Source: Streptomyces bauhiniae
GTDB taxonomy: Bacteria; Actinomycetota; Actinomycetes; Streptomycetales; Streptomycetaceae
DNA length: 64,000 nt
Assembly: GCF_004784475.1 (NCBI RefSeq)
Contig: NZ_SRRT01000002.1
Coordinates: 620,001-684,000, forward strand
Direction of reading: 5' to 3'
In this document: in pieces, positions 1,725-57,162 of the stretch
Layout: every line of letters begins with the position of its first letter
How positions within the stretch are numbered: the stretch's first letter is position 1
The notes under the pieces: generated by a model
What the model was told of the DNA's origin: nothing
What the model saw: only the letters and a program-made list of their open reading frames with translations
Databases searched by the model: none
Made by a program: the position numbers and the translations under genes

Positions 1725-1738
1725 ACTCCCCTTGTCCG

Positions 1739-3496: not shown

Positions 3497-3498
3497 GG

Positions 3499-16096: not shown

Positions 16097-16822
16097 TCAG
16101 GTCGGCTGCGGGCGCCCCCACACCCGTCGCTTCGGCAGCGGGCGCGCGTAGCTGCCCGTGCGGCTCGTGGTCAGGCCCAGGGTGACGAGGGATTCGGCGA
16201 GTTTCACCGCCGCGCTCACGCCGTCCACGATCGGGAGGCGGAGCTGGGAGGACAGCTTCCGTTGGAGGCCCGTCATGCCGGCGCAGCCGAGGATGAGGAC
16301 TTCGGCGCCGGCCGCCTGGGCCTGGGTGGCGGCCGTCAGGAAGGCGGTCTCCGTGCGGGTGGGATCGGTGGTGAGGTCCAGGACGGCCAGGCCGGTGCCG
16401 AGGACGGTGGCGCAGTTGCGGGCCACTCCGGCGGTTTCGAGGCTGTCCTCGATCTGGCCGCGGGAGCGGTCGAGGGTGGTGATGACGCCGTAGCGGCGGC
16501 CGAGGAGGCAGGCGAGGTGGGCGGCGGCCTCGGTGATGTCCACCACGGGGACGTCGACCAGCTCGCGTACGCCTTCGCGGCCGTGCTCGCCGAAGCCGGC
16601 CAGGACGACGGCGTCGTACGGGGGGCCGTCGTAGGTGCGCAGGGTGTCCAGGACGGCGGCGGCGGAGAGGTGGCTGTCGAGCCAGCCCTCGGCGGACTCG
16701 GGGCCCCAGGCAGGGGTCAGGCCGGTCACGGTGGTGCCGGGGGCGGCGGCGGCACGGGCGCCCTGGACGATCTCCTCGGTCATCTGGGCCGTGGTGTTGC
16801 AGTTGGTGACGACGATCCGCAT
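16097..16822 (-). CDS. Asp/Glu/hydantoin racemase family protein
   Basis: A protein of about 241 aa of the Asp/Glu racemase fold, hydantoin/allantoin racemase branch. It begins MRIVVTNCNTTAQMTEEI (usual form NPNT) and has the second catalytic Cys in LILGCAGM. At the place of the first catalytic Cys, hydantoin racemases have CFxDPG, but this protein reads AGFGEHG, so that Cys is Gly. It may not racemise by the two-base route. It follows the NCS1 permease gene directly: GTG at 16831 would overlap the permease stop, but the ATG at 16822 has GGAGG ten bases upstream and is preferred. The pair suggests uptake and use of hydantoin, allantoin or a related cyclic ureide. Confidence 0.8.
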   Translation of the reverse strand: MRIVVTNCNTTAQMTEEIVQGARAAAAPGTTVTGLTPAWGPESAEGWLDSHLSAAAVLDTLRTYDGPPYDAVVLAGFGEHGREGVRELVDVPVVDITEAAAHLACLLGRRYGVITTLDRSRGQIEDSLETAGVARNCATVLGTGLAVLDLTTDPTRTETAFLTAATQAQAAGAEVLILGCAGMTGLQRKLSSQLRLPIVDGVSAAVKLAESLVTLGLTTSRTGSYARPLPKRRVWGRPQPT

Positions 16823-16827
16823 GCCTC

Positions 16828-18276
16828 TCACGCCTCCGCCCCGGCCCGGCCCCGGTTCAGCAGCCAGTACAGGCCCGCTCCGAGCGCCGTACCGATGAAC
16901 CAGGAGTAGGGCGCGACATCACCGAAGTCCTTGACCAGGGCCAGCACGGCGGCGACCGCGGCCGAGGGGAGGAAGGCGCCGAGGGCCCTGGGGTTGACGC
17001 CGTGGCGGTAGTGGTAGCGGGAACCGGGGGTGGCGTCGAAGAGTGCGTCGACGTTCACCCGGCCGCGCTTGACGGCGTAGTAGTCGACCATGATCACGCC
17101 GAACAGGGGGCCCAGGAAGGCACCGAGGCCGCCGAGGAAGTAGTTGACGACCGTCGGGTTGGAGAAGAGGTTCCACGGGGTGACGACCAGGGCGGCGACC
17201 GTGCTGATCATGCCGCCGACCTTGAAGGTGATCTTCTGCGGCCAGACGTTGGCGAGGTCGTACGCCGGGGAGACGAAGTTGGCGACGATGTTGACGCCCA
17301 TGGTGGCGACGGCGAAGGTCAGCGCGGCGACGGCCAGGACCCAGGTGTTGCCGACCCGCGCGACCAGTTCCGCCGGGTCGGTGACGGCCTTGCCGAACAC
17401 CTCCAGCGACCCTGCCGTAACGATGACCGACAGCACCACGAACGCGGTCGAATTGACCGGCAGACCCCAGAAGTTGCCGCGCCGCACGGTCCGGTAGTCG
17501 GGTGCGAAGCGGGAGAAGTCGCAGAAGTTGAGCATCAGCGTGCCGTAGGTCGCCAGGATCAGCCCGATCGCCCCGAACCACTGCCGCCACTGCTCCCCCG
17601 TGGAGACCGGGTGCGGGGTCGCGGTGAGCGAGATGGTCCAGTGGGCCTTGGCCAGCACCCAGAGGGCGAGCGCGATCATCACCAGCCAGATCGCGGGCCC
17701 GCAGAAGTCCTGGAACCGGCGTACGGACTCCATCCCCCGGCTGATGATCAGCGCCTGGACCAGCCACAGGGTAAGGAAGGAGATCCAGCCGAGGGCGTCC
17801 AGACCGAGGAAGGAGTGCTCGGTCAGCGACTCCAGGTCGGGCCAGGCGGCCAGCAGCATCACGTTGACGGCGACGGAGGCGAGGTAGGTCTGGATGCCGT
17901 ACCACATGATGGCGATCAACGCCCGTATCAGCGCGGGGATGTTGGCACCCCAGACGCCGAAGGCGATGCGGCTGACCACGGGGAAGGGCACGCCGTGGCG
18001 CTGGCCGATGCGGCCCATCCAGTTCATCCCGATGAAGATCAGCACGAAGCCGGTGAGCAGGGAGGTGAACACCTGCCAGACGTTCATGCCGAGTACCAAC
18101 AGCCCTGCGGCGAAGGTGTAGTTGCCGAGGTTGTGGACGTCCGACATCCACAGCGCGAACAGGTCGAAGACCTTCCAGTTGCGCCGGGCGGCCGGGGCGA
18201 GGTCCTCGTTGGTCAGGCGCGGGTCGGGGGTGAAGGCGGGCGCGCCCGCTGCTTCGGCGTGGTCGGCGAGGGACAC
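16828..18276 (-). CDS. NCS1 family nucleobase/hydantoin/allantoin permease
   Basis: A 482-aa, 12-helix NCS1 transporter (Mhp1/PucI/FurE type). The N-terminus has LTNEDLAPAARRNWKVFDLF then the helix-1 motif WMSDVHNLGNYTFAAG. Helix 3 has GMNWMGRIGQRHGVPFPV. ISRGMESVRRFQDFCGPAIWL and the WQQF-like QWFGAIG are typical. It imports a nucleobase or cyclic ureide with sodium or protons; the racemase-like neighbour favours hydantoin or allantoin. GTG at 18276 is preceded by a strong AGGAGG. A perfect 14-bp palindrome lies 40 bases upstream and the GntR regulator is divergent. Confidence 0.9.
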   Translation of the reverse strand: MSLADHAEAAGAPAFTPDPRLTNEDLAPAARRNWKVFDLFALWMSDVHNLGNYTFAAGLLVLGMNVWQVFTSLLTGFVLIFIGMNWMGRIGQRHGVPFPVVSRIAFGVWGANIPALIRALIAIMWYGIQTYLASVAVNVMLLAAWPDLESLTEHSFLGLDALGWISFLTLWLVQALIISRGMESVRRFQDFCGPAIWLVMIALALWVLAKAHWTISLTATPHPVSTGEQWRQWFGAIGLILATYGTLMLNFCDFSRFAPDYRTVRRGNFWGLPVNSTAFVVLSVIVTAGSLEVFGKAVTDPAELVARVGNTWVLAVAALTFAVATMGVNIVANFVSPAYDLANVWPQKITFKVGGMISTVAALVVTPWNLFSNPTVVNYFLGGLGAFLGPLFGVIMVDYYAVKRGRVNVDALFDATPGSRYHYRHGVNPRALGAFLPSAAVAAVLALVKDFGDVAPYSWFIGTALGAGLYWLLNRGRAGAEA

Positions 18277-19192: not shown

Positions 19193-19606
19193 ATGGGTAA
19201 CTACGACAACTCGATCACCGTGGCCGTCCCGGCGGACCGCCTCTTCGACTACCTCGCGGACGTGGAGAACCTCCCGTCCTACCTCCCCCGGCTGACCTCG
19301 GTCGAGCCGGAGGGCGGCGACCGCGTCACGGTCACCGCGCACATCGACCCGCCCGGCGAGCCGGAGCAGGACGTCACCAGCGAGGCGTGGGTGCATGTGC
19401 TGGAGGACGGCAAGAGCCTGGAGTGGGGCGCGCCCGGCCCCGACGACTACCACGGCCGGCTGCACGTGGCCGCGGGCGACGAGGCGGGCAGCTCGCGGCT
19501 GACCGTCGAGCTGCACACCGACAACGTCGAGGGCGAGCACGTCAGCCGCGGCCTGGAGGAGGCCCTGCACGGCATCAAGCGCGCCGCCGAGCGGTCCGCG
19601 CGCTAG
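19193..19606 (+). CDS. SRPBCC family protein (polyketide cyclase/START-like fold)
   Basis: A 137-aa single-domain protein. Its start, [30 protein letters not shown], is the SRPBCC/polyketide-cyclase-2 signature for a hydrophobic ligand pocket. No ligand can be named. Similar small SRPBCC proteins are common stand-alone genes in Streptomyces. Its TAG stop and the TAG of the convergent NRPS gene share the same CTAG at 19603-19606. I see no reason to include it in the NRPS pathway. Confidence 0.85.
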
Positions 19607-22600
19607 CGGGCGGCCCCTCCCTTCCCCGGCTCCGGCAGGAAGCCGGTGCTCTGGAACCAGGTGAGGTAGCGGGCGAGCACCTCATCGGTCAGCTCGGGCT
19701 GGTGGACGCCCAGGACGCCCACCGCCTTGGCCGTCTGGTCGGAGTCGAAGCGCCGCCGGTCCATCGCCTCGTGCCGGGTCTGCGGCTCGTCCCCGAGGAA
19801 GAGCTGGGCCGCGTTGTCCGGGTCGGCGGCGACGCGGGCCTGCCACTCCTCGACGGGGACGGTGCTCAGCTCGTGGCCGAGCCGCGCGGCCGCCGCGAAG
19901 ACGCGGCCCAGGTCCGGGGCGTCCGGGTTGGTGAAGTGGTACACCTCGCCGCCCGGCTGGCCCGACCCGGCGAGCGCCACGACCGCCCGGCTGACGTGGT
20001 CCACCGGCACCCAGTCGGTGGAGCCGTACGGCAGATCGGGCACGGCCCCGGCCTGGAGGCAGCCCTTGATGAGCTGCCAGAGCAGGTCCCGGTCCTGGCA
20101 GGCACCGGTGGCGGTGTCGCCACTGATCCGGCCGGGCCGGTGCACGGTGACCGGCAGCCCGCGTTCGGCGGCGAGCCCGACCAGGCCCTCCGCGACCCAC
20201 TTGCTGCGGGCGTACCCGTCGGGCAGATCGGCCGGCGGGCCGGTCGGGGTGGACTCGGTGACGACGACCGGGTCGGGTCCGGTGGCCGGGGCGAACACGC
20301 TGGTGGTCGAGATGTAGTGCAGGCCCGGGGACGCCGAGTCGGCGAGCAGCCGCAGCAGCTCCTCGGTGCCCGCGACGTTGGGGGCGCGCAGATCCCCGTA
20401 CCCCGCCGCGAAGTTGACGCGGGCGCCGTTGTGCAGGACCGGGCCGAGGCGGCGCACCAGCGCGGTGCGGTCCTGAGGGGTGAGGCCGAGGCCGGGGGCG
20501 GCGAGGTCGCCCGGCACCGCGTTGATCAGGGTCTCGTAGCGGGGCTGCCAGAGGCCGTAGTGCTCCAGGTTGGCCCGGAGCCGCTCGGCGGCCCGCAGCG
20601 GGTCCTCGGCGCGGACCAGGCAGTCGACCGGGCCATCGGTGCTCTCGATGAGGTCCCGCAGGAGGAAGGCGCCCAGGAACCCGGAGGCGCCGGTGAGCAG
20701 CGGGCGCGTGCCCGGGCGGGCGCTCCTGCGTGCGGTGGCCGTGATGTCCGGGGCGAGACGCACCTCGGCGGCGAGGTCCAGCCCGCTGCCGTACCCCTGC
20801 TCCCCCGGCGTCCGCTCCAGCAGCCGGGCCACGCCCTCCACCGTCGGCGCGGCGAAGAGGTCCCGCAGGGACAGGCGCCGGCCGCAGCGTTCCTCGATCC
20901 GCTGGGCGAGGGTGACGGCGAGCAGGGAGTGGCCGCCGAGGGCGAAGAAGTCGTCCTGTACGCCGACTTGGGGCACACCGAGGGTCTCGGCGAACGCCGT
21001 GCACAGCTCGCGTTCCAGGTCGGTGCGCGGGGCGGTGCCCTCGCCGGGCGCGGTGCGCTCGGGTGCGGGGAGGGCCTGCCGGTCGGTCTTGCCGTTGGGG
21101 GTCAGCGGCAGGGTGTCCAGCGTGACGTAGGCGGCCGGGACCATATGGTCGGGCAGGGTCTCGGCGAGGCGGGCGCGCAGTTCGGCGGCGTCGGGGACCC
21201 GCTGCCCCTCCTCGGCGACCGTGTAGGCGACCAGGCGCCGGTCGCCGGGGCGGTCCTCGCGGACCATCGCGCAGGCGGAGCCGATGCCGGGCAGCGCGGT
21301 GAGGGCGGCCTCGATCTCGCCCAGCTCGATGCGGAAGCCGCGCAGTTTGACCTGGTCGTCGACGCGGGAGACGTAGACGAGTTCGCCGTCGGCGGTCCAG
21401 CGGGCCAGGTCACCGGTGCGGTACATCCGGCCGCCCGCGCGGTCGAAGGGGTCGGCCACGAACCGGGTCGCGGTCAGGGCGGCCCGCTCGTGGTAGCCAC
21501 GGGCCAGGCTGGCGCCGGAGACGTACAACTCGCCGACCACGCCCGGCGGTACGGGGGCCAGCCGGTCGTCCAGGACGTGGACGCGGGTGCCGTCGACGGG
21601 GACGCCGATGGGCACGGTGCGGTCGGGGGCGAGGGGACCGTCGGCGTGCTGGAAGGCGCTCATGGTGGCGCAGACGGTGGTCTCGGTGGGCCCGTACGCG
21701 TTGACCAGGTGCCGGTCGCGCGCCCACGTGTGCACCAGGTGCGGCGGGCACGCCTCACCGGCGAGGGCGATGGTGGTGCCCTCGGGCAGCGAGCCGGGCG
21801 GCATCACGGCGAGCGCGGCGGGCGGCAGGGTGAGGTGGGTGACCCCGCGCTCCCGGACGGTGCCGGCGAGAGCCGGTCCGGGCAGCAGGGCGTCGCGCTC
21901 GTCGATCTCCAGGCAGGCCCCGGTGAACAGGCCCATGCACATCTCCCAGAACGCCGCGTCGAAGCTGACGGACGCCACGTGCAGCACCCGGTGGCCGGGG
22001 CCGACCCGCAGCCGCTCGGCGTGCGTCCGGGCCAGCGCGCCGACCCCCTGGTGGGTGACGACGACACCCTTGGGCAGGCCGGTGGAGCCGGAGGTGTAGA
22101 TGACGTACGCCGGGTGCGCCGGGTCGGGATCACCCGAAGCGGAGGCGGCCGCCGTGCCCCGCATGAGGTCCCCGACGTGGACGTGCGGCACCGGCAGTTC
22201 GGGCAGCCGTTCGCGCACCTCGGGGGTGGTCAGCAGCAGGCGCGGCCGGGAGTCCTGGACCATGTGGGTGAGGCGCCGGGCCGGATAGTCGGGGTCGAGC
22301 GGTACGTACGCGGCCCCGGCCTTGAGGACGCCGAGCAGGGTGACCAGCAGCTCGCGGTTGCGGGGCAGGGCGACGGCGACCCGGTCCTCGGGGCCGATGC
22401 CGCGCGCGGCGAGGTCGGCGGCGACGGAGTCGGCGAGGGCGTCGAGTTCGCGGTAGGTGAGCGTGGTGGTGGCGTCGCGGACCGCCGGGGCGTCCGGGGA
22501 GTCGCGTACCCAGCGCCGGAACAGGGCGGGGACGCTCTCGGGCTGGTCGGCCCCGGGGCCGGTGCCCCAGGCGGTGACGCGGGCGCGGTCGGCGTCGGTG

Positions 22601-25600
22601 AGGACGTCGTAGGCGCGCAGCGGGCGGTCGGGGTCGGCGGTGACGGCGGAGAGCAGCCCGGCGAGGCGCTCGCCGAGGGCCTCCACGGTGGCCGCGTCGA
22701 AGAGTTCCGTCGCGTAGTCCACGGCGGCCCGCATGGCGCCCGGTGCGCCCTGGTCGTCGTGGGTCTCGGTGAAGGTGAAGGACAGGTCGAACTTGCTGAC
22801 GTCCAGCTCGACCGGGACCGGGCTCACGGTGAGACCCGGCAGCTCGACCGGGGCGGCCGGGCTGTGGTTCTGGAGGACGAGCATGGTCTGGAACAGCGGG
22901 TGGTGGCTCTGCGAGCGGGCGGGGTTGAGGAGTTCGACCAGCCGCTCGAAGGGGAGGTCCTGGTGGGTGTAGGCGGAGAGGTCGAACTCCTTCACCCGGT
23001 CCAGGAGTTCGCGGAAGGTGGGGTCGCCCGAGAGGTCGGTGCGCAGGACGAGGGTGTTGACGAAGAAGCCGACCAGATCGGTGGCCGCCTCGTCGGTGCG
23101 TCCGGCCACGGCGGTGCCGAGCGGGATGTCCTCGCCCGCGCCGTGCCGGGACAACAGCAGGGAGAGGGCGGCCTGGAGGACCATGAAGACACTGCATCCG
23201 CTGGTGCGGGCGAGGTCCGTGATCCGGCGGGCGGTGCCGGCGTCCAGGGTGAAGTCGTGGGTGGCGCCGATGTGGTGGGGCACGGCGGGGCGCGGCCGGT
23301 CCCACGGCAGGTCGATCAGCTCGGGCAGGCCGCCCAACGCCCGCTTCCAGTGGTCGAGTTGGCCGGACAGTACGCTGTCGGGGTCGTCCTCGTCGCCGAG
23401 AAGGGCCCGTTGCCAGAGCGCGTGGTCCACATGGTCGACCGGCGGCGCGGTCCACGCCGGGGCCCGACCGCCGACGCGGGCGCGGTAGGCGGTGCCCAGG
23501 TCGCGGGTAAGGGGCGCGAGGGAGGAGCCGTCGGCGGCGATGTGGTGGACGACGAGGACCAGCGCGTGGGAGTCGTCGGCGAGGCGCAACAGCGTGGCCC
23601 GGAGCGGGAGTTCGCTCTCGATGTCGATGGCCTCGGCGGCGATCCCCGCCACGGCCGCGCCGAGCCGCTCCTCGTCGGCTTCCCGGACGGTGAACGGCAC
23701 GCTCGCCGCGCCGGGTTCGGTGATGTGCTGGTGCGGGCCCTCCCCGTCGGCCGGGAAGAGGGTGCGCAGCGCGGAGTGCCGGGCCACCACGTCATCCAGC
23801 GCGGCGCGCAGGGCCTCCTGGTCCAGCGGGCCGTCGAGGCGTACGGCGAAGGGGATGTTGTAGGTGGCGGAGGGGCCTTCGAGCCGGTGCAGGAACCACA
23901 GGCGCCGCTGGGCGTAGGACAGCGGCAGCACCTCGGGGCGCGGCTGCGGGACCAGGGCGGGGCGGGCCGGGCGGTCGCCGTCGGCGAGGACGGCGGCGAA
24001 GGAGGCGACCGTCGGGTTCTCGAAGAGGGTGCGGATCTCGGTCTCGGTGCCCAGCGCGGTACGGACGCGGCCCACCAGCTTGGTGGCGAGCAGGGAGTGG
24101 CCGCCCAGGGCGAAGAAGTCGTCGTCCACGCCGACTTGGGGCACACCGAGGACGTCCGCGAACAGTCCGGCGACGATCTCCTCGTGCGCCCCGCGCGGCG
24201 CCCGTCCCGCGGCGCCCGGTCCGGTGCCGGTGGGCGCGGGCAGTGCGGCCCGGTCCACCTTGCCGTTGACGGTCAGCGGAAGGGCGTCGAGCGGCTGGAT
24301 GGCTGACGGCACCATGTAGGACGGCAGGTGGCGGCCGATGTGGGCGGCCAGCTTGGCGGGGTCCGCGGTGTGGCCGGGGGCCGGGACGACGTACGCGGCG
24401 AGGGTGCGGTCGCCCGGAAGATCCTCGCGGACCAGGACGCAGGCGGCGCGCACGGACGGGTCGGTGCGCAGGACCGCCTCGATCTCGGCGGGCTCGATGC
24501 GGTGGCCGCGCAGCTTGATCTGCTGGTCGGCGCGGCTGACGTAGTGGATCAGGCCCTCGGTGTCCCGGCGCACCACGTCACCCGTGCGGTACATCCGGGT
24601 GCCGTCGCCCTCGAAGGGGTCGGCGACGAAGCGGGTGGCGGTGAGGTCGGGGCGCCCGAGGTAGCCGCGCGCGACACCGGGGCCCGCGATGTACAGCTCG
24701 CCCTCGGCGCCGGGCGGGACCGGGCGCAGGGCCGCGTCCAGGACGTAGGCCCGCATGCCGTCCAGCGGGCGGCCGATCGGGGGCATGCCGGGCGGGGCGT
24801 CGGCCGGGACGCGGTGGAGGGTGGCGAAGGTCGTGGTCTCGGTGGGGCCGTAGGCGTTGAGGACCGCGGTGCCGGGGTGGGCGGCGGCCAGTTGCTGGAG
24901 CACGCCGGGGGTGGCGGCCTCGCCGCCGGCGGCGGCCAGCCGGAGCAGGCCGAGGGCGCCGGGGTCGGCCTCGGCGATGACGTTGAACAGGGCGGTGGTC
25001 AGGAAGGCTGCCGTCACCCCGTGCCGGGTGACGAGGTCGCGGAGCGTCTCGGGCTGGAGCGTTCCCGGCGGGGCCACGACGACCCGGCCGCCGCTGAGCA
25101 GGGGCGCCCAGATCTCGAAGGTGGCCGCGTCGAAGACGTACGCGGAGTGCATCAGCACGGCGTCCGCGACGCCGTCGGCCCAGGTGCGGTCGGCGGCGAG
25201 GGCGGTGATGTCGGCGTGGGTGACACCGACGGCCTTGGGCAGGCCGGTGGAGCCGGAGGTGAACATGACGTAGGCGAGCCGGTCGCCGCCGGACACGGCG
25301 GGCAGCGCGCCGGGGGCGAAGGGACCGCCGCTGACGACGCGTCCGGCGGAGTCCACGGTGAGGACGGGGATGTCGAGCCCCCGCACCCAGGGTTCGTCCC
25401 GTGTCGTCCCGTCCACGATGAGGGCGCGCAGCGGGGCGGACTCGGTGACGCGGTCGAGGCGGTCGGCAGGCCAGCGCGGGTCCAGCGGGACGTACGCGGC
25501 GCCCGCGCGCAGGACGGCCAGGGCGGAGGTGACCTGGGCCGAGGAGCGGCCGAGCAGGATGCCGACCCCGTCCTCGGCGCCGACCCCGGAGCCGGTGAGG

Positions 25601-27110
25601 GCCTTGGCCAGCCCGGTGGACAGCTCCTGGAGCTGCCCGTAGGTCAGCTCCTCCCCCGCGCCGGTGACGGCGATGGTGCCGGGGTGGTGCACGGCCTGCC
25701 GGGCCACCACGTCCGGCACGCTCATGTTCCGCACGTTCAGCCGGAGTTCGGCGCCGCGCCCCGCCTCCAGCAGCCGTTCCCGCTCCCCGTCCAGGAGCAG
25801 GGGCAGGCTGTCGGCCCGTACGTCGAGGCCCTCCGCCATGCGGGTGAGCAGACGGCGCATGCGGGCCACGGTCTGCTCGATCTCCGTGCGGTCGAGCAGA
25901 GCGGCGCGATAGCCGAAGGTGACGCGGAGGCTGTCCTCGCCGGGGGCGATGGTGAGGGTGAGCGGGTAGTGGGCGGCGTCGGTGCCCTCGATCCCGGCGA
26001 CGGTGAGGCCGGCCATGCCCTGCTGGGCGGTGCGCAGGGCCTCGGCGTCCAGCGGGTAGTTCTCGAAGACGGCGAGGGTGTCGAAGAGCCGGTCGAGCCC
26101 GGCCGTCTCGCATATCTCGGTCAGCCCGACGTACTGGTGGCCCAGCAGTCGGGCCTGCTCCTCCTGGAGCCGGGTGAGCAGCGCGGCCAGGGATTCGCCG
26201 GGCGCGGGGCGCAGCCGTACCGGGACGGTGTTGATGAACAGGCCGATCATCGTCTCGATGCCGGGGATCTCCGGCGGCCGCCCGGAGACGGTGGTGCCGA
26301 ACACCACGTCGGAGCGCCCGGTGAGGTGGCCCAGCACCAGGCCCCAGGCGCCCTGGACCAGGGTGTTGAGGGTGAGCCGGGAGGCGCGGGCCGTCTCGCG
26401 CAGCCGGTGTGTGGTGTCCCGGTCCAGCTCCAGCACGAGGGTCTCGGGCAGCTCGGCGGAGTCCGGGCCCTCCGGCGCGTCCCGCCCGGCGAGCAGGGTC
26501 GGCGTCTCCAGCCCCGCCAGCGCCTCCCGCCAGGTCTTCAGCGTGGCCGCCCGGTCTTGCGCGGCGAGCCAGGCGAGGTAGGTGCGGTACGGGGTGACGC
26601 GGGGCAGGGTGAGGTCGTCGCCCTGGCGGGCGTACAGCTCGAACAGCTCGCGGACCAGCAGCGGGACGGACCAGCCGTCGAAGAGGAGGTGGTGGCTGGT
26701 CATCACCAGCTTGTGCCGGCCGGGCCCGGTGTGGACGAGGGTGAACCGCATCAGGGGCGGGGTGGTGAGGTCGAACCGCCGGGTGCGGTCCTCGGCGAGG
26801 AACGCCTCCAGCGCCTCCGGTCCGTCCGCCGAGGTGAGGTCCAACTCCTCCAGCGGTACGGGTACTTGCGCCGCGACCGCCTGGACGGGCTGGTCCAGGT
26901 CCTCGTGGAGGAAGCCGACCCGGAGGTTGGCGTGGCGGCGCAGCAGGGTGCCGAGGGCGGAGCGGAGGGCGAAGACGCTGACGGTGCCTTCCAGGTCGAA
27001 GACGAACTGGGTGGTGTAGACGTCCACGGCCTGGGAGTCGTAGAGCGAGTGGAAGAGCATGCCCGCCTGCAACGGCGTCAAGGGCAGTACGTCCTCCAGT
27101 TGGAACCCGG

Positions 27111-27114
<4 letters not shown>
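19603..27114 (-). CDS. Non-ribosomal peptide synthetase, C-A-T-C-A-T-R (modules 5-6, terminal thioester reductase)
   Basis: A 2503-aa two-module NRPS. C5 (residues 1-430) begins [19 protein letters not shown], the D-C-L type that follows an epimerase, with active site HHLLFDGWS near 140. A5 (about 450-950; A3 motif near 615) has pocket DAFFAGATF. T5 has [10 protein letters not shown] near 1000. C6 has HHIAADGSS near 1190. A6 (A3 motif near 1670) has pocket DAWTAAAVC, close to phenylalanine codes. T6 has GGHSLLAV near 2060. The end (about 2135-2500) is an NAD(P)H reductase with [14 protein letters not shown] and catalytic YARSK, replacing a thioesterase, so the peptide leaves as an aldehyde or alcohol. 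The GTG at 27114 overlaps the upstream stop (GTGA); a GTG at 27129 would add five residues. Confidence 0.93.
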
Positions 27115-41411
<14,297 letters not shown>

Positions 41412-41811
41412 GCGGGATCAACCTTTGGGGAGAGGTTCCGGGGACGGTAAGGAAAGCCCGGGTAAAACGAACGCGCGCGCAGCGGCTCGCCCCAAGGCGT
41501 TTCCGTGACGGTGAAAGGAAGAAAGTGCGTCTGCGAGATGTCGAAACGGCCGCGCCCATCCGCACTTCCGCTTACCGGCGCACGAGTGCCCGTCGTATCC
41601 ACGCGCGTCGACCCTGCGGCCGGGCGGGCCGCCGGGACCTCGGCGAGCGGGAACGGGAACCGGCGCGAGCGTCTCGCCGGCGGTGACGGTCGTCCGGCCC
41701 CGCCGACCCGGCGGCCCCCGGGGCGAGAGCGGCGCCCAGGGGATCACTTGGCGGCAAAATGCCGTACGACCAGGCATGACACCCCGGACGGGCCGGGGCT
41801 GCGGGGACGGC
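41412..41811 (-). other. 400-base gap between mbtH and NRPS-1; no credible gene
   Basis: No open frame here looks like a real gene: the candidates are short, Arg/Pro-rich and lack ribosome sites. It contains the hairpin at 41782-41798 just after the mbtH stop and a second inverted repeat, CGGCA-AAA-TGCCG, at 41752-41764. The stretch close to the NRPS ATG is rich in AAGG/GGAA and could hold a separate promoter and ribosome site for the NRPS genes, but no clear -35/-10 pair can be fixed. Confidence 0.6.
41782..41798 (-). terminator. Short hairpin after mbtH (possible attenuator/terminator)
   Basis: CCCCGG-ACGGG-CCGGGG, a 6-bp GC stem with a 5-base loop, starting 14 bases beyond the mbtH stop on the minus strand. 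No U-tract follows, as is usual in Streptomyces. It could end or thin out transcription from mbtH into the NRPS genes. Confidence 0.45.
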
Positions 41812-42027
41812 CTAGCCGTCGGCCGCCATCGCCCGCACCAGACTGGCGGGCCGCATGTCGGTCCACTGGGCCTCGATCGCGTCCAGGCACTCCTGGCGCG
41901 ACCCCTCCGGACCCTCGGCCCGCCAGCCCCCCGGCACGGCGAGCGTCGCCGGCCAGAGCGAGTACTGGCCCTCTTCGTTCACGAGCACCAGGAACTTGCC
42001 CGATTCATCGTCGAAAGGATTGACCAC
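41812..42027 (-). CDS. MbtH-family NRPS accessory protein
   Basis: A 71-aa MbtH-like protein, a chaperone-like partner that binds NRPS adenylation domains and is often needed for their solubility and activity. The family signature is complete: NPFDDESGKFLVLVNEEGQYSLWP, then PGGW and CLDAIEAQWTDMRP, with the conserved Trp residues in place. The GTG at 42027 puts the protein start two residues before NPFD and has GGGG a few bases upstream; the longer open frame upstream adds residues no MbtH has. It lies 400 bases ahead of the NRPS genes in the same orientation and surely serves them. Confidence 0.95.
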   Translation of the reverse strand: MVNPFDDESGKFLVLVNEEGQYSLWPATLAVPGGWRAEGPEGSRQECLDAIEAQWTDMRPASLVRAMAADG

Positions 42028-42693
42028 GACGCCCCCCTTGGCAGCACGTACATCAGCTTGTTTTTCCGAGCCGCCGCGCATTCCGTTTCCGCGGCTCCCG
42101 GACTGCTTGCCCGATCCGCACAGTGCGTCAGATCGAACGAAGGAGCGAAGCGCTCCATCCCCGAGATGACAGTTCCCGTGCGGCCGGTCGGAACCAGACT
42201 GCCCGGACCCTGTTCATTCACACTCATCACACTAAGGGAAAGTCCACGACCGGAGGTACTCGTTCGATCGATTACCGATGGGTAATAGAGCGCGCAATAA
42301 TCGCCCGCGCTGCCTTTGGCATATGCCTAACGGCATTCAGCATCCACCATTCGGCCAACAGGCGCCCGGAGTACGGCAGTTCACCCGGATATGACCCACG
42401 CTGATCCGGCCGATCCGGCGCATGTGCCACCACGCTCTCACTTGAGCGCACATGACTCCGTACCACGCGCCTGTGCGCCGACCGTGCGCCCCGTTTTCAC
42501 CCGTGACCCCCCGCCGCACCGACCAGATCAGGACACGCGGGTCGAAGAACAGACCGCGCACCCCGCTTTCCGGACGACCGGTATCCGGCCAAGGCGCGCA
42601 CTGTGCCCCACTCGAAGCCTTAGGGGGCTGTCATGGCTGACGAATGATCAATAACCTTACGGAACACGCCATTCCCGGTCTCGACGGAGCATC
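42028..42693. other. 666-base divergent intergenic region between mbtH and P450; operator-like repeats
   Basis: No credible gene. This is noticeably less GC-rich than its surroundings around 42240-42420 and 42640-42670 and should hold the promoters for mbtH (leftward) and the P450 (rightward). Three repeats stand out: ATTACC-GATG-GGTAAT at 42271-42286; half-sites TGCC-TTT-GGCA and TGCC-TAAC-GGCA around the palindrome GGCATATGCC at 42311-42335; and a nested hairpin CATGTG...CGCTC-TCACTT-GAGCG-CACATG at 42421-42454. No iron box was found. Confidence 0.6.
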
Positions 42694-43917
42694 ATGACCA
42701 CTGCGGCACCGATACCCGACATCCTCTCGCCCGAGTTCGCGGCGGACCCGTACCCGGCCTACCGGCTGATGCGGGAGTCCGCGCCCCTCATCTGGCACGA
42801 GGCCACGCAGAGTTACATCGTCTCGCGCTACGAAGACGTCGAACGCGTCTTCAAGGACAAGGACGGCGAGTTCACCACCGACAACTACGACTGGCAGATC
42901 GAGCCGGTCCACGGCAAGACGATCCTCCAGCTCAGCGGCCGTGAGCACGCGGTGCGCCGGGCCCTGGTCGCCCCCGCCTTCCGCGGCCGGGACCTCCAGG
43001 AGAAGTTCCTGCCCGTCATCGAGCGCAACTCTCGCGAACTGATCGACGCCTTCCGGCACTCCGGCTCCGCCGACCTCGTCACCGACTACGCGACCCGGTT
43101 CCCGGTCAACGTGATCGCGGACATGCTGGGCCTGGACAAGGCCGACCACAGCCGCTTCCACCGCTGGTACACCGCCGTCATCGCCTTCCTCGGCAACCTG
43201 TCCGGCGACCAGGAGGTGGCCGCGGCCGGCGAGCGCACCCGCGTGGAGTTCGCGGAGTACATGCTCCCGATCATCCGCGAGCGCCGCGACAACCTCGGCG
43301 ACGACCTGCTGTCGGTGCTGTGCGCCGCCGAGGTCGACGGGGTGCGGATGAGCGACGAGGACATCAAGGCGTTCTGCAGCCTGCTGCTCGCCGCCGGCGG
43401 TGAGACCACGGACAAGGCGATCGCCAGCATCTTCGCCAACCTGCTGAGCCACCCCGACCAGCTCGCCGCGGTCCGGGCCGACCACAGCCTGATCCCGCGG
43501 GCGTTCGCGGAGACCCTGCGCTTCACCCCGCCGGTGCACATGATCATGCGGCAGTCCGCGACCGAGGTGAAGCTCAGCGGCGGCACCATCCCGGCCGGGG
43601 TCACCGTCACCTGCCTGATCGGCTCGGCCAACCGGGACGAGAACCGCTACCGCGAGCCCGACCGCTTCGACATCTTCCGCGAGGACCTCACCGCCACCAA
43701 CGCCTTCTCCGCGGCCGCCGACCACCTGGCGTTCGCGCTGGGCCGGCACTTCTGCGTGGGCGCGCTGCTCGCCAAGGCGGAGGTCGAGATCGGCGTCGCC
43801 CAACTGCTGGACGCCATGCCGGACCTGCGTTTCGCCGAGGGCTTCGACCCGGTCGAGCAGGGCGTGTTCACCCGCGGCCCCCAGGCCCTGCCCGTGCGCT
43901 TCACCCCCACCGCCTGA
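42694..43917 (+). CDS. Cytochrome P450 (canonical motifs)
   Basis: A 407-aa soluble bacterial P450. The I-helix motif is AAGGETTD, the K-helix ExxR is ETLR, and the heme loop is FALGRHFCVGALLAKAE with Cys354 as thiolate ligand, so it should be an active monooxygenase given a ferredoxin partner, none of which is encoded nearby. It is divergent from mbtH and the NRPS genes and convergent with the conservon. It could hydroxylate the NRPS peptide, or be the active partner of the conservon P450 (in Streptomyces, pairs of a normal and an ExxR-less P450 occur at conservons). Sequence alone does not decide. Confidence 0.9.
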   Translation: MTTAAPIPDILSPEFAADPYPAYRLMRESAPLIWHEATQSYIVSRYEDVERVFKDKDGEFTTDNYDWQIEPVHGKTILQLSGREHAVRRALVAPAFRGRDLQEKFLPVIERNSRELIDAFRHSGSADLVTDYATRFPVNVIADMLGLDKADHSRFHRWYTAVIAFLGNLSGDQEVAAAGERTRVEFAEYMLPIIRERRDNLGDDLLSVLCAAEVDGVRMSDEDIKAFCSLLLAAGGETTDKAIASIFANLLSHPDQLAAVRADHSLIPRAFAETLRFTPPVHMIMRQSATEVKLSGGTIPAGVTVTCLIGSANRDENRYREPDRFDIFREDLTATNAFSAAADHLAFALGRHFCVGALLAKAEVEIGVAQLLDAMPDLRFAEGFDPVEQGVFTRGPQALPVRFTPTA

Positions 43918-43923
43918 CCCGCG

Positions 43924-43955
43924 CCGCTGGGCCCCCTCCCCCGGGGGCCCAGCGG
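43924..43955. terminator. Bidirectional terminator hairpin
   Basis: A perfect 13-bp stem (CCGCTGGGCCCCC with GGGGGCCCAGCGG) and a 6-base loop TCCCCC, set between the stops of the convergent P450 gene (43917) and cvnE (43964). Very GC-rich without U-tract, as typical in Streptomyces. It should stop transcription from both sides and separates the NRPS region from the conservon. Confidence 0.85.
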
Positions 43956-43963
43956 GCCGGCGG

Positions 43964-45229
43964 CTATCCGTCGACCGGGGTGAACCGCACCGGGAGGGTG
44001 GTCAGCCCGCGCATCCAGATGGACGAGCGCCAGGTCAGCGTGTGCGGGTCCACCGCGAGCACCAGGTCGGGCAGCCGCTCCAGCAGCGTTTCCACTGCGG
44101 TGCGCGCCATGACGTCCGCGAGCAGCGGCGCCGGGTACGGGCACCGGTGCTCGCCGTTGCTGAACGACAGGTGCGCGGCGTTCTCCGCGCCCACATGGCC
44201 CTCGGGCCACAGACTCGGGTCGGTGTTGGCGGCGGCCAGCCCGAGGACCAGGCAGTCGCCGGCCCGGATCTGACGGCCGCCGAGCTGGGTGTCCCGTACC
44301 GCCCAGCGGCCGATGAAGTTCTGGGTGGGGGTGTCGAGCCAGAGCACCTCGTTCAGCGCCTCGCCCACGCTCACCCGGCCGCCGGACACGCTGAGTTCGA
44401 ACCGCTCGTCGGTGAGCAGCAGACGCAGCGCGTTGCAGATCCAGTTGGCGGTGGGCTGCTGCGCGGCGGCGATGACCGAGATCAGGTCCTGGACGATCTC
44501 CTCGTCGCTGAGCCCCGCCGGGTGCAGCACCATCCGCGAGGTGACGTCCTTGCCGGGGTCGGCCCGCTTGTCCTGGACCAGCCGCACCAGCCGCTCGCCC
44601 ACCCGCCCGTAGGCCGCCACCGGGTCGTCGCCCTCGGCCGCGTCCAGGGAGATCCGCAGGTCGTCGACGAGCTGCTGGGTGTCGGCGCCGGACATCGGCA
44701 TACCGCACATCTGCACCACGGCCCGCATCGGCAGGGCGTGCGCGTACGACGTCATCAGCTCGGCCTGGCCGCTGCCGGCGAACCGGGCGATCAGCTCGTC
44801 GGCGATCAGCTCGCAGTCGCGGGCCAGCTCGAACTGGTCCACCCCGGACAGCGCCTCGGTGATCACCCCGGCCCGACGCCGGTGCTCCTCCCCCTCAGTG
44901 AACAGCACCGAGGGCTGGTAGCCGACGAAGGGCATCAGCGGCCAGTCGGGCGGGATGTTGTCCCACTGGTTCCAGCGCCGCGAGTCCCGCGCGAACAGCT
45001 CGTCGTGGCTGGTCACCTGGGCGACCTCGTGGTAGCCGAGCACCAGCCAGGCCGGGATGTCGCCGTCCAGCAGAACCGGCGCGACCGCGCCGTGCTCGCG
45101 GCGCAGCGCCCGGTACATCTGCGACGGCGTCTGCTGGTACTCCAGGCCCGCCAGGCGCACCGCGTCGGTGTGGGCGGGGCAGCCGGGCGGCGGTGCCTGG
45201 TGCGCGGAGATGGGGCCGGGGTCGGTCAC
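43964..45229 (-). CDS. cvnE: Conservon cytochrome P450, CYP157-like, lacking ExxR
   Basis: A 421-aa P450, last gene of the conservon. The heme ligand is Cys363 in SFSNGEHRCPYPA. The K-helix position that carries ExxR in nearly all P450s reads NEVLWLDTP, i.e. Trp in place of Arg. The I-helix reads AAAQQPTANW, without the usual acid-Thr pair. The absence of ExxR is the defining oddity of the streptomycete CYP157 family, which occurs in conservons. Catalytic ability is uncertain; it may act as a redox or ligand sensor. GTG at 45229 overlaps the cvnD stop (GTGA). Confidence 0.9.
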   Translation of the reverse strand: MTDPGPISAHQAPPPGCPAHTDAVRLAGLEYQQTPSQMYRALRREHGAVAPVLLDGDIPAWLVLGYHEVAQVTSHDELFARDSRRWNQWDNIPPDWPLMPFVGYQPSVLFTEGEEHRRRAGVITEALSGVDQFELARDCELIADELIARFAGSGQAELMTSYAHALPMRAVVQMCGMPMSGADTQQLVDDLRISLDAAEGDDPVAAYGRVGERLVRLVQDKRADPGKDVTSRMVLHPAGLSDEEIVQDLISVIAAAQQPTANWICNALRLLLTDERFELSVSGGRVSVGEALNEVLWLDTPTQNFIGRWAVRDTQLGGRQIRAGDCLVLGLAAANTDPSLWPEGHVGAENAAHLSFSNGEHRCPYPAPLLADVMARTAVETLLERLPDLVLAVDPHTLTWRSSIWMRGLTTLPVRFTPVDG

Positions 45230-45843
45230 GGGGTCGCCTCCTGGGCCGTGGCCAGCGTGTACACATGGTCCACGAGAGTGATCAGCACGTCCTTGCCCGA
45301 CTGCCGGACCCGGGCGTCGCAGTCGATCATCGGCACGTGGTCCGGGAGCGCGAGGGCCTGCCGGATCTCGTCCAGGGAGTGGTGGGCCGCGTCGTCGTCG
45401 AACCGGTTGACGGCCACCACGAAGGGCGTGCCGTGGTGTTCCAGCCGGTCTATCGCGTACCAGGAGTCGTCCATCCGGCGGGTGTCCACGAGGACGACGG
45501 CGCCGAGGGTGCCGGAGAAGAGCCGGTCCCACAGGAACCAGAAGCGCTTCTGGCCCGGCGCGCCGAACAGGTACAGCACCATGGTGTCGTTGAGGCTGAT
45601 CCGGCCGAAGTCGAAGGCGACGGTGGTGGTGGACTTCGCGGCGACGCCGCTGGTCTCGTCGATGCCGACGCCGGCCTCCGTCATCACCTCCTCGGTGTTC
45701 AGCGGCCGGATCTCGCTCACGGAGCGGACCAGCGTGGTCTTGCCGACGCCGAAGCCGCCCACGACGACGATCTTCAGCCCGGTTTCCGCCGCGTCGGCCA
45801 GTGGCGTGCGGTGGGCGGGCAGCTCAGAGATTGCGGAGCCCAT
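45226..45843 (-). CDS. cvnD: Conservon small GTP-binding protein
   Basis: A 205-aa Ras-like GTPase of the conservon. P-loop GGFGVGKTT near residue 29, switch II/G3 FGAPGQKRF, and G4 NRFDDD (NKxD variant). In the S. coelicolor cvn9 system, CvnD-type proteins form a membrane-associated complex with CvnA, CvnB and CvnC and hydrolyse GTP. Overlaps cvnC by 20 bases and cvnE by 4, so the operon is tightly coupled. Confidence 0.93.
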   Translation of the reverse strand: MGSAISELPAHRTPLADAAETGLKIVVVGGFGVGKTTLVRSVSEIRPLNTEEVMTEAGVGIDETSGVAAKSTTTVAFDFGRISLNDTMVLYLFGAPGQKRFWFLWDRLFSGTLGAVVLVDTRRMDDSWYAIDRLEHHGTPFVVAVNRFDDDAAHHSLDEIRQALALPDHVPMIDCDARVRQSGKDVLITLVDHVYTLATAQEATP

Positions 45844-46171
45844 GGAGCACTTCCTTGAGAAGGGCGGGATCGGGGAGCGAGGGATTCACGGGTGGGTGGC
45901 GCGCGGTGATCCGGCCGGTGTCGAGCAGGTCGGCCAGCAGGATGCGGCAGACCGTGATCGGCAGTTCCAGCTCGGCGGAGATCTCCACCACCGAGGTGGG
46001 GTGCCGGCACAGGTTCAGGATGCGGGTGTGCTCCGACTGCATGCCCGTGGTCGGCTGGCACTCCGCGACGATGAGGGTGACCAGGTCCAGGGTGTCGTCG
46101 ACGCTGCTGCGCCCGCCGGTGACCGTGTAGAGCCGGTCGGGGGCACCGGTGTCCACCGGCTTGCGGGTCAC
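45824..46171 (-). CDS. cvnC: Conservon DUF742 protein
   Basis: A 115-aa DUF742 protein, the third conservon component. It shows the core RLYTVTGGRS, then the winged-helix-like stretch HTRILNLCRHPTSVVEISAELELPITVCRILLADLLDTGRI, and ends LLKEVLHGLRNL. The fold is a winged helix thought to mediate complex formation rather than DNA binding. ATG overlaps the cvnB stop (ATGA). Confidence 0.93.
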   Translation of the reverse strand: MTRKPVDTGAPDRLYTVTGGRSSVDDTLDLVTLIVAECQPTTGMQSEHTRILNLCRHPTSVVEISAELELPITVCRILLADLLDTGRITARHPPVNPSLPDPALLKEVLHGLRNL

Positions 46172-46623
46172 GGGGTACTCCCCTGGAACGGCTGCCGGGG
46201 CGCGGCCCGCAGATGCTCGCCGATCTTGTCGACCAGCCCGGTCATCTCCTCGCCGAGGCGGCCGGGATCGGCGTCCTCGGCGGCGACGACCGCGAGGTGG
46301 GCGCCCTCACCGGCGCCGACGATGCACAGCAGGCCGCCGTGGAAGGCGGTCATGGCGTGGAGCACGCCGCCGGAGCCGTCCCCGAACTCCACGGACGCGC
46401 CGTGGGAGAGGGCCTGGAGGCCGGAGCAGATCGCGGCGAGCTGGTCGGCCTGGTCCGCGGCGAGGTCGGGGGTCCAGCAGAGCTTGAGGCCGTCGCGTGA
46501 GAGGACCAGGGCGTGCCGGGCACCGGGCGTCTGCTCCAGCAGGTTCTGCAGCAGCCAGACGAGGCTGTTGTCGGTGGTCTGCATGATGGGTGATGGGACG
46601 GTGGTGTCCGGCTGTTCGGTCAC
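46168..46623 (-). CDS. cvnB: Conservon roadblock/LC7 protein
   Basis: A 151-aa roadblock/LC7-domain protein, related to MglB-type partners of Ras-like GTPases. It shows WLLQNLLEQTPGARHALVLSRDGLKL at the start of the domain, then ADQLAAICSGLQALSHGA and HGGLLCIVGAGEGAHLAVVA. It likely regulates or scaffolds CvnD. It is separated from cvnA by 75 bases and overlaps cvnC by 4. Confidence 0.93.
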   Translation of the reverse strand: MTEQPDTTVPSPIMQTTDNSLVWLLQNLLEQTPGARHALVLSRDGLKLCWTPDLAADQADQLAAICSGLQALSHGASVEFGDGSGGVLHAMTAFHGGLLCIVGAGEGAHLAVVAAEDADPGRLGEEMTGLVDKIGEHLRAAPRQPFQGSTP

Positions 46624-46698
46624 CGGCCCGTTCCTCCAATCTCATGGGCACGAGGGGGGCGTGGCTGCCGGGCGCGGGCCCGGCGGGGCTTGGGGGTG

Positions 46699-48465
46699 CT
46701 AACCGGCGGTCGGCGGCTCGGGGTCGGGGCGGCCGCCCAGGGTGTCGCCCGAGGACTTGCGCGAGCGGTGGAAGGCGCCGAAACGGGAGCCGACGTCGTG
46801 CACGGGCCGCTTGCGGGGCGGGGTGGGCTCGCTCGGGGGACGCTGGGCGCGCTCGGCGTCGCTCATGGTGCGGCCGGGTTTGCGGACGGGGAGGCCGTTC
46901 GGGGTGGCGTCGGCGGGCATGGCCGCGGGCGGCTCGTGCCGGGTCTGCTCGGGGACTTCCCGCAGTTTCACTGGGGGATCGGGGCGTACGTGCGCCTCCA
47001 GGACGTGCGCCTCGACGACGGGGGCCTCGACGACGGGAGCGGGCGTCGCTGCTTCGGGCGCCGGGACCGCGCGGGCGGTGGCCGTCCGGGCCGCCTCCTG
47101 CTGTGCGGGCCACGGGTCGCGCTGCTGCGCGATGAGGTGCCGGGGCAGCAGGACGACCACGCCGGTGCCGCCGCGCGAGGAGGGGCGGTAGCTGACGTTG
47201 ATGCGGTACTTGAGCGCGAGCAGTCCGACCACGGCGAGGCCCAGCCGGGTGCCCTGGAGGGAGGCGAGGTCGGCCATGCTGCCGGCCACCGCGCCCTCGG
47301 CGTGCCGCATCGCCGCCTCGGACATGGTCAGTCCGCTGTCCTCGACGGTGACGACGATCCCGGCCCGGTGCTCCTCGACGTAGACGTGGACCTCGTCGGT
47401 GGGCGGGGAGAAGTTGGCCGCGTTGTCGATCAGTTCGGCGAGGAGGTGCATCACGCCTTCGGCGGCGAAGCCGGAGATGGCGGCCTGGGAGGTGAAGTGC
47501 AGCCGGACCCGCTGATAGGCGGCGATACGGCCGATGGCGCCCCGGAGGATGCTCTCCATCCGGATCGGCTTGTTCCAGGTACGGCTGGTCTTGCCGCCCA
47601 TGAGCAGTGCCAGCCGGTCGGCGATGAGCACGAGCTGGGAGGTCTTGTGGTCCAGCCGCATCAGGTCGCCGAGCATCTTGCCGTCGTGCTCGTCCTGCAT
47701 CGCCCTGAGGTCGGCGAGCATGCTGACGGCCTTGGCCTGGACCCGGCTGAGCGCCTTGGTGGAGGCGATCCGGGCACCGCCTGCGCGCCGCTCGCTGCGG
47801 GCCAGTTCGCGGACGACCAGCTCGCTCAGGTCGTGCATCAACGGCATCCGGGGCAGCGTGAGTTCACCGAGGACGGTGTCGGCCGAGCGGCCCTCGGCGA
47901 GCCGGGCGACGGCGGCGGGCAGCGTCTCCCGGCCGAGCCGGTCCACCTCGGCCAGCACCTCGTTGAGGGCCTCCTGGGTCTGCCGGGACTCCTCGTCGGC
48001 GGCGGCCGCGCGGCCCACGGCCTCCTCCAGGGCGCCGGCGGAGAGCTGGGCGAGGCGGCGCAGGTTCTGGTCGTTGGGCATCGAGACGCCCGCGAGCGCG
48101 TCGGCGGCGCCGCTGCCGGTCAGCACCAGGTTGTGCAGGGAGGGCAGCGTGACGTTGGCCAGGTGGCCGGTCTGCGCGGCCGTCTGCTGCGCCTGCGCGC
48201 GGAGCCGGTCGTTCTCGGCGGCCTGGGTGGCGGCGGCGAGCCTGGCCCGGCGGACGAGGAGGTGTCCGACGAGCACCGCGACGGCGACGCACGCCCAACC
48301 CGCGCCCGCCACGATCAGGGTCCATCTGCGGGTGCCGGACGGCGCCGCCCCGACCGCGACGGCGGCCGCGACGGCGGTCACCGCGACCACGGCCGCGGGC
48401 ACCGCCCACGAACTGCGCTGAACGGCCGTCGAGCGGTGTTGAACGGACGGTGCAGGAACTGACAT
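46699..48465 (-). CDS. cvnA: Conservon sensor kinase-like membrane protein
   Basis: A protein of about 588 aa, the sensor of the conservon. Two membrane helices at the N-terminus (WAVPAAVVAVTAVAAAVAVG and LIVAGAGWACVAVAVLVGHLL) precede a long helical cytoplasmic stretch. The nearby DHKTSQLVLIADRLALL is the dimerisation region and an HATPase domain follows with the N-box ELIDNAANFSPP and VEDSGLTMSE. The C-terminal 150 residues are Pro/Arg-rich and disordered. There is no classical H-box, as usual for CvnA. ATG at 48465 is favoured; a start at 48576 adds 37 basic residues with no membrane or enzyme feature. Confidence 0.9.
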   Translation of the reverse strand: MSVPAPSVQHRSTAVQRSSWAVPAAVVAVTAVAAAVAVGAAPSGTRRWTLIVAGAGWACVAVAVLVGHLLVRRARLAAATQAAENDRLRAQAQQTAAQTGHLANVTLPSLHNLVLTGSGAADALAGVSMPNDQNLRRLAQLSAGALEEAVGRAAAADEESRQTQEALNEVLAEVDRLGRETLPAAVARLAEGRSADTVLGELTLPRMPLMHDLSELVVRELARSERRAGGARIASTKALSRVQAKAVSMLADLRAMQDEHDGKMLGDLMRLDHKTSQLVLIADRLALLMGGKTSRTWNKPIRMESILRGAIGRIAAYQRVRLHFTSQAAISGFAAEGVMHLLAELIDNAANFSPPTDEVHVYVEEHRAGIVVTVEDSGLTMSEAAMRHAEGAVAGSMADLASLQGTRLGLAVVGLLALKYRINVSYRPSSRGGTGVVVLLPRHLIAQQRDPWPAQQEAARTATARAVPAPEAATPAPVVEAPVVEAHVLEAHVRPDPPVKLREVPEQTRHEPPAAMPADATPNGLPVRKPGRTMSDAERAQRPPSEPTPPRKRPVHDVGSRFGAFHRSRKSSGDTLGGRPDPEPPTAG

Positions 48466-48967
48466 TCCGCGGTCCCTCGGTCTGCGAGCAGAAGAATCGG
48501 CGACCGAACGCCTCGATCGCGGGTCCGGAAGCGGCCGCCTCGGAGGAAGGCGATCTTCCAGTCCGGTTATGCCCACATGCTAGTCACACCGGAGTGACCC
48601 AAGTTCCGAATGGCCCCTCCTGAGCCCCCGGACCTGAAGTCGTCGTGAAGCAACCATTGCTACAGCGGGGCGTGATAGAGGGCTGCGCAGGCTCACCCAC
48701 AGGTACGGGGCCCGGAAAGACCCGTTCCGCCCCCGATGCCCCGCCCCACGGGTAGCTGCCGCAAACCCCTCCTGGGCCGTCAACCCCCTCCCGAGGGACC
48801 CCTTTCCAGCCAACCGAACCCGGTCACCGCGAAGTGGGGGGAGTCGAACGGGTTTCCACCCTGACGGGGGAACGTCGTCGTCGGGGAGGTGCCGGTACCG
48901 GGAGGTAGTGTCCGCAGCATTGCCCAATTCCGGGACATTCAAGAGAATTTCCGATAAGGGGCGAAGA
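48466..48967. other. 502-base divergent region between cvnA and namZ-like gene
   Basis: No credible gene. It should carry the promoters of the conservon and of the muramidase/transporter operon. TTGCCC (48920-48925) and GAGAAT (48943-48948), 17 bases apart, are a possible -35/-10 pair for the rightward operon, followed by a GGGGCGAAG ribosome site before the ATG at 48968. A weak inverted repeat GTCAC-N6-GTGAC lies near 48584-48599. Nothing else stands out. Confidence 0.5.
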
Positions 48968-56629: not shown

Positions 56630-56646
56630 GCCCGACAGGAGGAAAC

Positions 56647-57162
56647 ATGATCTGGTACGCGCTGCTGGTGGCCGTCGTCGCGGGTGAGCGGGTCGGCGAA
56701 CTCGTCGTGGCCCGGCGCAACGAGCGCTGGAGCAGGGCCCGTCGGGCGATCGTGGCGGGTGACGGGCACTATCCGGCGATGGTCGCCCTGCACGTGGGTC
56801 TGCTGGTGGGCTGTCCGCTCGAAGTGTGTCTCGGCGGGCGGCCGTTCGTGCCCGCGCTGGGCTGGCCGATGCTGGCCGTGCTGGTGGGCGCGCAGGCGTT
56901 GCGGTGGTGGTGCATCGGGACGCTCGGGCCGCGCTGGAACACCCGCGTGATCGTCGTACCGGGTCTGCCGCTGGTGGCGCGGGGGCCGTACCGGCTGCTG
57001 CGGCATCCGAACTACGTGGCCGTGGTGGCCGAGGGGGTGGCGCTGCCGCTGGTGCACACCGCCTGGGTGACCGCCGTGGCGTTCACGGTGCTGAACGCCG
57101 CCGTGCTGACCGTGCGCATCCGGTGCGAGAACCAGGCGCTGGCCGCCGCGGTCGCGGCGTGA
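56647..57162 (+). CDS. Isoprenylcysteine carboxyl methyltransferase-like protein (SrsB-like)
   Basis: A 171-aa membrane methyltransferase of the ICMT/phospholipid methyltransferase type, with four or five helices. The conserved C-terminal motif is RGPYRLLRHPNYVAVVAEGVALPL, then the acidic RIRCENQAL. In S. griseus a similar protein, SrsB, methylates the alkylresorcinol made by the type III PKS. ATG at 56647 follows AGGAGGA. It overlaps the FAD oxidoreductase gene by 4 bases. Confidence 0.88.
   Translation: MIWYALLVAVVAGERVGELVVARRNERWSRARRAIVAGDGHYPAMVALHVGLLVGCPLEVCLGGRPFVPALGWPMLAVLVGAQALRWWCIGTLGPRWNTRVIVVPGLPLVARGPYRLLRHPNYVAVVAEGVALPLVHTAWVTAVAFTVLNAAVLTVRIRCENQALAAAVAA

Follow-up and report, generated by a model that had tools for sequence, protein, structure and literature searches.

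A three-gene nonribosomal peptide synthetase locus of Streptomyces bauhiniae with a predicted flavopeptin-type aldehyde product

Introduction

Flavopeptins are peptides with a C-terminal aldehyde which inhibit cysteine proteases and the proteasome (PMC8009326; PMC4071589). A locus of similar build lies in a 64,000-nucleotide stretch of the 6.75 Mb genome of Streptomyces bauhiniae (assembly GCF_004784475.1, contig NZ_SRRT01000002.1, positions 620,001 to 684,000), referred to here as the window, in which two very long minus-strand open reading frames, encoding the nonribosomal peptide synthetases (NRPSs) NRPS1 and NRPS2, form a single operon-like run. Together with the gene of an MbtH-family protein, located 400 bases upstream of NRPS1, they very probably constitute a six-module assembly line whose predicted product is an N-acyl hexapeptide ending in the aldehyde of the flavopeptin family. 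Like the flavopeptin synthetase, the pair is a Streptomyces NRPS with a terminal NAD(P)H reductase (R) domain, a type that gives peptide aldehydes (PMC8009326; PMC4071589; PMC8949500), and it has colinear relatives in K. papulosa and an NRPS2 relative in S. pratensis.

The R domain belongs to the same family as the reductases of MxaA (structure 4u7w) and of the myxochelin synthetase MxcG, and the MxcG model (NF038078) aligns over the last module and the R domain, below its cut-off. Reductases of the MxaA and MxcG type differ from that of the window in that they presumably release alcohols or amines from other products. A further relative is the cluster of S. microflavus NA06532 (HUT09_RS35830-35820), which has the same order of MbtH, NRPS1 and NRPS2 and 76% protein identity; it differs in being plasmid-borne, and its product is not stated.

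Domain organization and catalytic motifs

By Pfam, NRPS1 contains five Condensation, four AMP-binding and four PP-binding domains, and NRPS2 contains two of each followed by a single C-terminal NAD_binding_4 domain (Table 1). The layout proposed in the first-pass annotation, namely a starter condensation (C) domain with no carrier (T) before it, six modules composed of C, adenylation (A) and T domains, an epimerization (E) domain after module 4 and a terminal reductase, was borne out by Pfam, NCBIfam and motif searches, and it is not a matter of chance, since it recurs in 26 other clusters. The MbtH gene, which that annotation does not name, starts at 42027, where the span given there ended. 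Counted from the first GTG of NRPS2, the two synthetase genes overlap by 19 bases, but the true overlap may be 4 bases because relatives of NRPS2 align from residue 6. The closest named NRPS2 proteins in the protein search are those of S. bauhiniae (97% identity over 2503 residues) and S. griseoluteus (95%).

Every catalytic motif examined is intact. All six carrier serines and all six A10 lysines are present in the two proteins, the His motif is found in all six C domains and in the E domain, and the R domain keeps its cofactor loop and Tyr-x3-Lys. As in lipopeptide NRPSs, a starter C domain (C1) stands at the very N-terminus of NRPS1 with no carrier before it, and it bears HHIAVDG at about residue 149. 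LPxDxxRP, a motif seen in LCL and absent in DCL domains (PMC1894796), is found in exactly C2, C3, C4 and C6, so C1 fits a starter domain and C5 a DCL-type domain downstream of E. The naming of C1 and C5 from their N-terminal motifs follows rules that we take to be general.

The starter C domain likely takes an acyl-CoA, the donor assumed here. A Pfam search of likely window genes chosen by hand, rather than of every open reading frame, found no fatty acyl-AMP ligase and no acyl carrier outside the NRPS genes. Such a dedicated ligase or carrier is a feature of some lipopeptide pathways and not of all.

Table 1. Positions in the window of the three genes, their modules and the conserved upstream stretch (aa, amino acids).
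Feature	Position	Strand	Description	Basis or remark
NRPS1	27111..41411	minus	4766 aa; starter C-A1-T, C-A2-T, C-A3-T, C-A4-T-E	Pfam and motifs
Module 1	38202..41411	minus	N-terminal starter-type C, A1 DAFFAGATF (Ile/Val-like), T	motifs; approximate boundaries
Module 2	34992..38201	minus	LCL-type C, A2 DAWQLGLID (Gln-like), T	approximate boundaries
Module 3	31812..34991	minus	LCL-type C, A3 DAFFCGVTF (Ile/Val-like), T	approximate boundaries
Module 4	28632..31811	minus	LCL-type C, A4 DAWQLGLID (Gln-like), T	approximate boundaries
E domain of module 4	27111..28631	minus	predicted D-Gln4; His motif at about residue 4406	approximate boundary
NRPS2	19603..27129	minus	2508 aa; C-A5-T-C-A6-T-R	Pfam and NCBIfam
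Module 5	23950..27129	minus	DCL-type C without LPxDxxRP, A5 DAFFAGATF (Ile/Val-like), T	approximate boundaries
Module 6	20791..23949	minus	LCL-type C, A6 DAWTAAAVC (Phe-like), T	approximate boundaries
Terminal thioester reductase domain	19603..20790	minus	TGASGFLG cofactor loop, YISTTSV, GYARSKW (Tyr-x3-Lys)	TIGR01746
MbtH-family protein	41812..42027	minus	71 aa; adenylation-domain helper	PF03621, 5e-26
Conserved non-coding stretch upstream of MbtH	42227..42330	minus	GGCATATGCC at 42318-42327, CCTTAGTGTGA at 42227-42237	predicted operator and promoter

Adenylation pockets and the predicted peptide

To obtain the nine-residue pocket codes, the A domains were aligned with MAFFT; the core motifs served as anchors for the positions, which follow GrsA numbering. 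In modules 1, 3 and 5 the fourth letter fell into an alignment gap; for module 5 it comes from a second alignment, and for the other two it was read by eye. The code table holds all A domains compared except two of strain SM10 and one of S. fulvorobeus. For modules 2 and 4 (DAWQLGLID) and module 6 (DAWTAAAVC), the alignment returned the same codes that had earlier been read by eye, and the pockets of modules 1, 3 and 5, then described as aliphatic-looking, share the Ile/Val-like pattern DAFF.G.TF. A published analysis predicts that DAWTVAAVCK selects Phe and that DAFFLGVTYK selects Ile (PMC9866976). The pocket codes and the E domain after module 4 also support the residue order X-Gln-X'-D-Gln-X-Phe that the first-pass annotation had put forward, and the predicted hexapeptide is likely acyl-(Ile/Val)-Gln-(Ile/Val)-D-Gln-(Ile/Val)-Phe.

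In the proposed route, the starter C domain would join an acyl-CoA to residue 1 and the six A domains would load the six residues. The E domain of module 4 would make D-Gln, to be taken up by the DCL-type C domain of NRPS2, and the R domain, with NAD(P)H, would cut the last thioester to the aldehyde. By analogy with the known activity of flavopeptins, this aldehyde would trap proteases and the proteasome at their active-site Cys or Thr. The aldehyde as opposed to an alcohol, the acyl chain and the residues are all predicted.

Relation to flavopeptins

The link to flavopeptins is indirect and runs through K. papulosa and S. pratensis. In K. papulosa, a cluster colinear with the window pair shows 76% identity in both proteins and differs from it in the pocket residues of modules 1, 5 and 6; its NRPS2 is 98% identical to P0073, a sequence named S. 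pratensis that represents 188 member sequences. The colinear pair of K. papulosa and the NRPS2 of S. pratensis place the cluster in the S. pratensis clade, which we presume to be that of the flavopeptin producer. According to PMC4239341, S. flavogriseus ATCC 33331 belongs to S. pratensis, a species of which five strains have all their natural-product clusters in common. These comparisons make it most likely that the cluster of the window belongs to the flavopeptin family, where it falls in a sub-branch marked by slight changes in the pockets. The first-pass annotation had left the choice between a flavopeptin-type and a new peptide aldehyde: the former agrees with the sequences, and novelty is not supported. 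Novelty is rated low because Streptomyces commonly have colinear clusters whose pockets are nearly identical, the S. pratensis clade among them; the cluster probably represents a known system in variant form, not a new one.

Several points weigh against this interpretation. The flavopeptins were reportedly first described by Chen et al. in 2013 from Streptomyces sp. NRRL F-6652, and the closeness of this producer to ATCC 33331 is our assumption, for which reason the flavopeptin label is a strong inference and not a demonstration. The flavopeptin synthetase itself, its module number included, lies outside the comparison, and the label rests on the clade link. That DAWQLGLID in modules 2 and 4 selects Gln is likewise presumed, and the literature search for pocket codes found no text printing it. 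The residue sequence of the flavopeptins was not found in a literature search that covered its sources in part and did not extend to the original description. In module 6, the fifth code position (299) of the window is Ala, in contrast to Val in 24 of the 26 other clusters, and a different residue 6 is therefore possible. Finally, the aldehydes formed by R domains generally go on to alcohols, flavopeptins being excepted (PMC8949500). The available parts of PMC6676996 and PMC4239341 do not name the cluster, and a literature search for phenylalaninal with Streptomyces NRPSs gave no match.

The pocket differences leave a real though minor chance that the window encodes a distinct congener, a reading compatible with a flavopeptin-type product. 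Ala299 in module 6 and Ala322 in modules 1 and 5, where Val is the commonest residue elsewhere, would widen the pockets, and residues 1, 5 and 6 would then differ from those of flavopeptins, for example by a larger aromatic residue at the C-terminus. At the module 6 position, S. griseoluteus also has Ala and S. fulvorobeus is unreadable, and among 120 listed reductase relatives 100 have Val, 16 Ala and one Thr (two are unreadable and one was left out as too short). Of the 16 listed relatives with at least 86% R-domain identity, 13 have DAWTAAAVC, versus 3 of the other 104 listed, and this clustering speaks for such a congener. Against it, the changes are conservative, P0002 and P0005 within the sub-branch keep Val and P0009 has Thr, and nine-residue codes predict substrates only roughly. 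The pocket changes of the sub-branch may or may not alter the residues.

Reductive release

At the end of NRPS2, the R domain with its cofactor loop and Tyr-x3-Lys takes the place of a thioesterase, as expected for reductive release. It scores 303 bits against the NCBIfam model TIGR01746 for thioester reductases (cut-off 213), and this model finds one domain above its cut-off in each of the genomes of S. bauhiniae and K. papulosa and none in 14 control genomes. Large NCBIfam matches to named synthetases (MxcG, AusA) stay below cut-off and reflect shared domains only.

Were the R domain to reduce twice, the N-acyl hexapeptide would end in phenylalaninol and the product would be a lipopeptide alcohol, a case that we regard as distinctly unlikely. 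The closest solved R domains, 8v1x and 4u7w, lend this some support, as MxaA presumably makes an alcohol. A review also gives the second reduction as the general case (PMC8949500). It is opposed by the orthologues in the S. pratensis clade, flavopeptins being known as aldehydes. A separate aldehyde-reducing gene common to the compared flanks was not found, which fits a single or a double reduction by the R domain alone.

Distribution and the three-gene unit

The MbtH-NRPS1-NRPS2 family is common in Streptomyces, not rare. A scan of species genomes with the reductase gave 40 loci in Streptomyces, Kitasatospora and Actinacidiphila, and 37 of the 40 reductase-positive genomes have a starter-C match with an E value of 1e-100 or better. 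In an even sample of the genus at the same threshold, 24 of 392 Streptomyces genomes, that of the window included, carry a close reductase relative. Of the 37 genomes, 25 with the starter C domain in a full-length open frame were compared and, with the plasmid cluster of S. microflavus, make up the 26 other clusters; twelve were left out, eleven with the starter C domain in a short frame (533 to 3688 codons) and one with it on a different contig from the reductase.

The gene order, with MbtH located by tblastn, is kept in all 26 of these clusters, which were selected for intact NRPS1. A single open frame encodes NRPS1 in all 27 clusters, window included, in part by choice because selection was on a full-length starter-C frame, and the same holds for NRPS2 in 26 of the 27. 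The exception is S. fulvorobeus, whose NRPS2 is broken into two open frames, either as a decayed copy or through a sequencing error. A7 motifs number four plus two in 26 of the 27 clusters, and four plus one in the scored piece of S. fulvorobeus. By pattern match only, carrier motifs fall below expectation in S. microflavus, uncultured 3-371-J, A. paucisporea, Kitasatospora SolWspMP and S. noursei, and the reductase cofactor string is unmatched in A. paucisporea.

The flanks compared comprise about 5 kb on the upstream side of MbtH and at least 10 kb on the downstream side, except in S. microflavus (241 bases upstream) and strain col6 (4.8 kb downstream). When 20 other window genes were searched by tblastn, 10 were common to S. 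griseoluteus and none exceeded 35% identity in any other cluster, the weak matches being to P450 and ABC genes. This suggests that the whole pathway consists of three genes only. The S. microflavus NA06532 copy lies on a 608 kb linear plasmid (NZ_CP054927.1) typed as mobilizable, and the cluster there has transposase genes on either side, which suggests transfer between strains.

The region upstream of MbtH is conserved as well. In 21 of 25 clusters, the element TGGCATAT or GCATATG lies 257 to 330 bases upstream of MbtH (shuffle mean 0.57); a string resembling CCTCTAnTGTGA likewise occurs upstream of MbtH in 21 of 25, at a distance of 168 to 242 bases (shuffle mean 0.035). The contrast is inflated, since the patterns were picked after seeing the alignment and shuffling preserved nothing but base content. 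Both counts include the window and exclude S. microflavus and S. noursei. The two elements are candidates for a binding site and a promoter shared across the cluster family, and their recurrence suggests a promoter region that belongs to the three-gene unit itself. A search of positions 41400 to 42700 gave no Rfam family.

Neighboring genes in the window

A P450 gene (42694-43917) and a P450-like gene (from 43964) adjoin MbtH and are divergent from it, and this position is what speaks for a tailoring role leading to a hydroxylated peptide. Such a role is highly improbable: among 25 other clusters whose upstream sequence extends to about 5 kb, this P450 is found only in S. griseoluteus, two more clusters having 30-32% matches elsewhere in the stretch, and of the 11 genomes that carry it besides that of the window (12 of 61 in all), nine have no reductase match and two have the reductase 2.2 Mb away or on another contig. 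In S. microflavus, for which the annotation is incomplete, neither a P450 nor an acyl ligase is annotated within 15 kb upstream of MbtH. The P450s were rejected as pathway members, as among the other clusters compared only S. griseoluteus shares the P450 beside MbtH, and in other genomes it occurs apart from the reductase.

The two P450s belong to a group at 42694-48576 that also holds ATP-binding, DUF742, roadblock and histidine kinase genes and is found independently of the NRPS genes, a set that we take to be the Streptomyces conservon layout. On the other side of the cluster, a polyketide cyclase-like gene (19193-19606) occurs in 2 of 61 genomes, that of the window included. An Asp/Glu/hydantoin racemase gene adjoins a cytosine/purine/allantoin permease gene at 16097-18276; this pair is unmatched in the S. 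griseoluteus stretch compared, and the genes on either side of it match. Farther away, selenocysteine machinery is located at 470-4824, with AIR synthase-like (SelD-type), SelB-like and SelA genes and a tRNA-Sec at 1629-1724, and a chalcone/stilbene synthase-like type III polyketide synthase gene lies near an FAD-binding gene at 55571-58172.

Biological implications

A broader and doubtful proposal is that the three genes, together with their conserved control region, form a self-contained cassette that has spread across Streptomyces to unrelated chromosomal and plasmid sites, where it would provide an internal aldehyde, timed to development, that inhibits proteases or the proteasome of the producer itself, and that the branch of the window has retuned three pockets toward a new congener. 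At the level of the family, a common Streptomyces cluster is connected here with an established class of compounds that inhibit the proteasome and cysteine proteases; its sequence gives a precise prediction for mass spectrometry, and a pathway of three genes would be easy to test.

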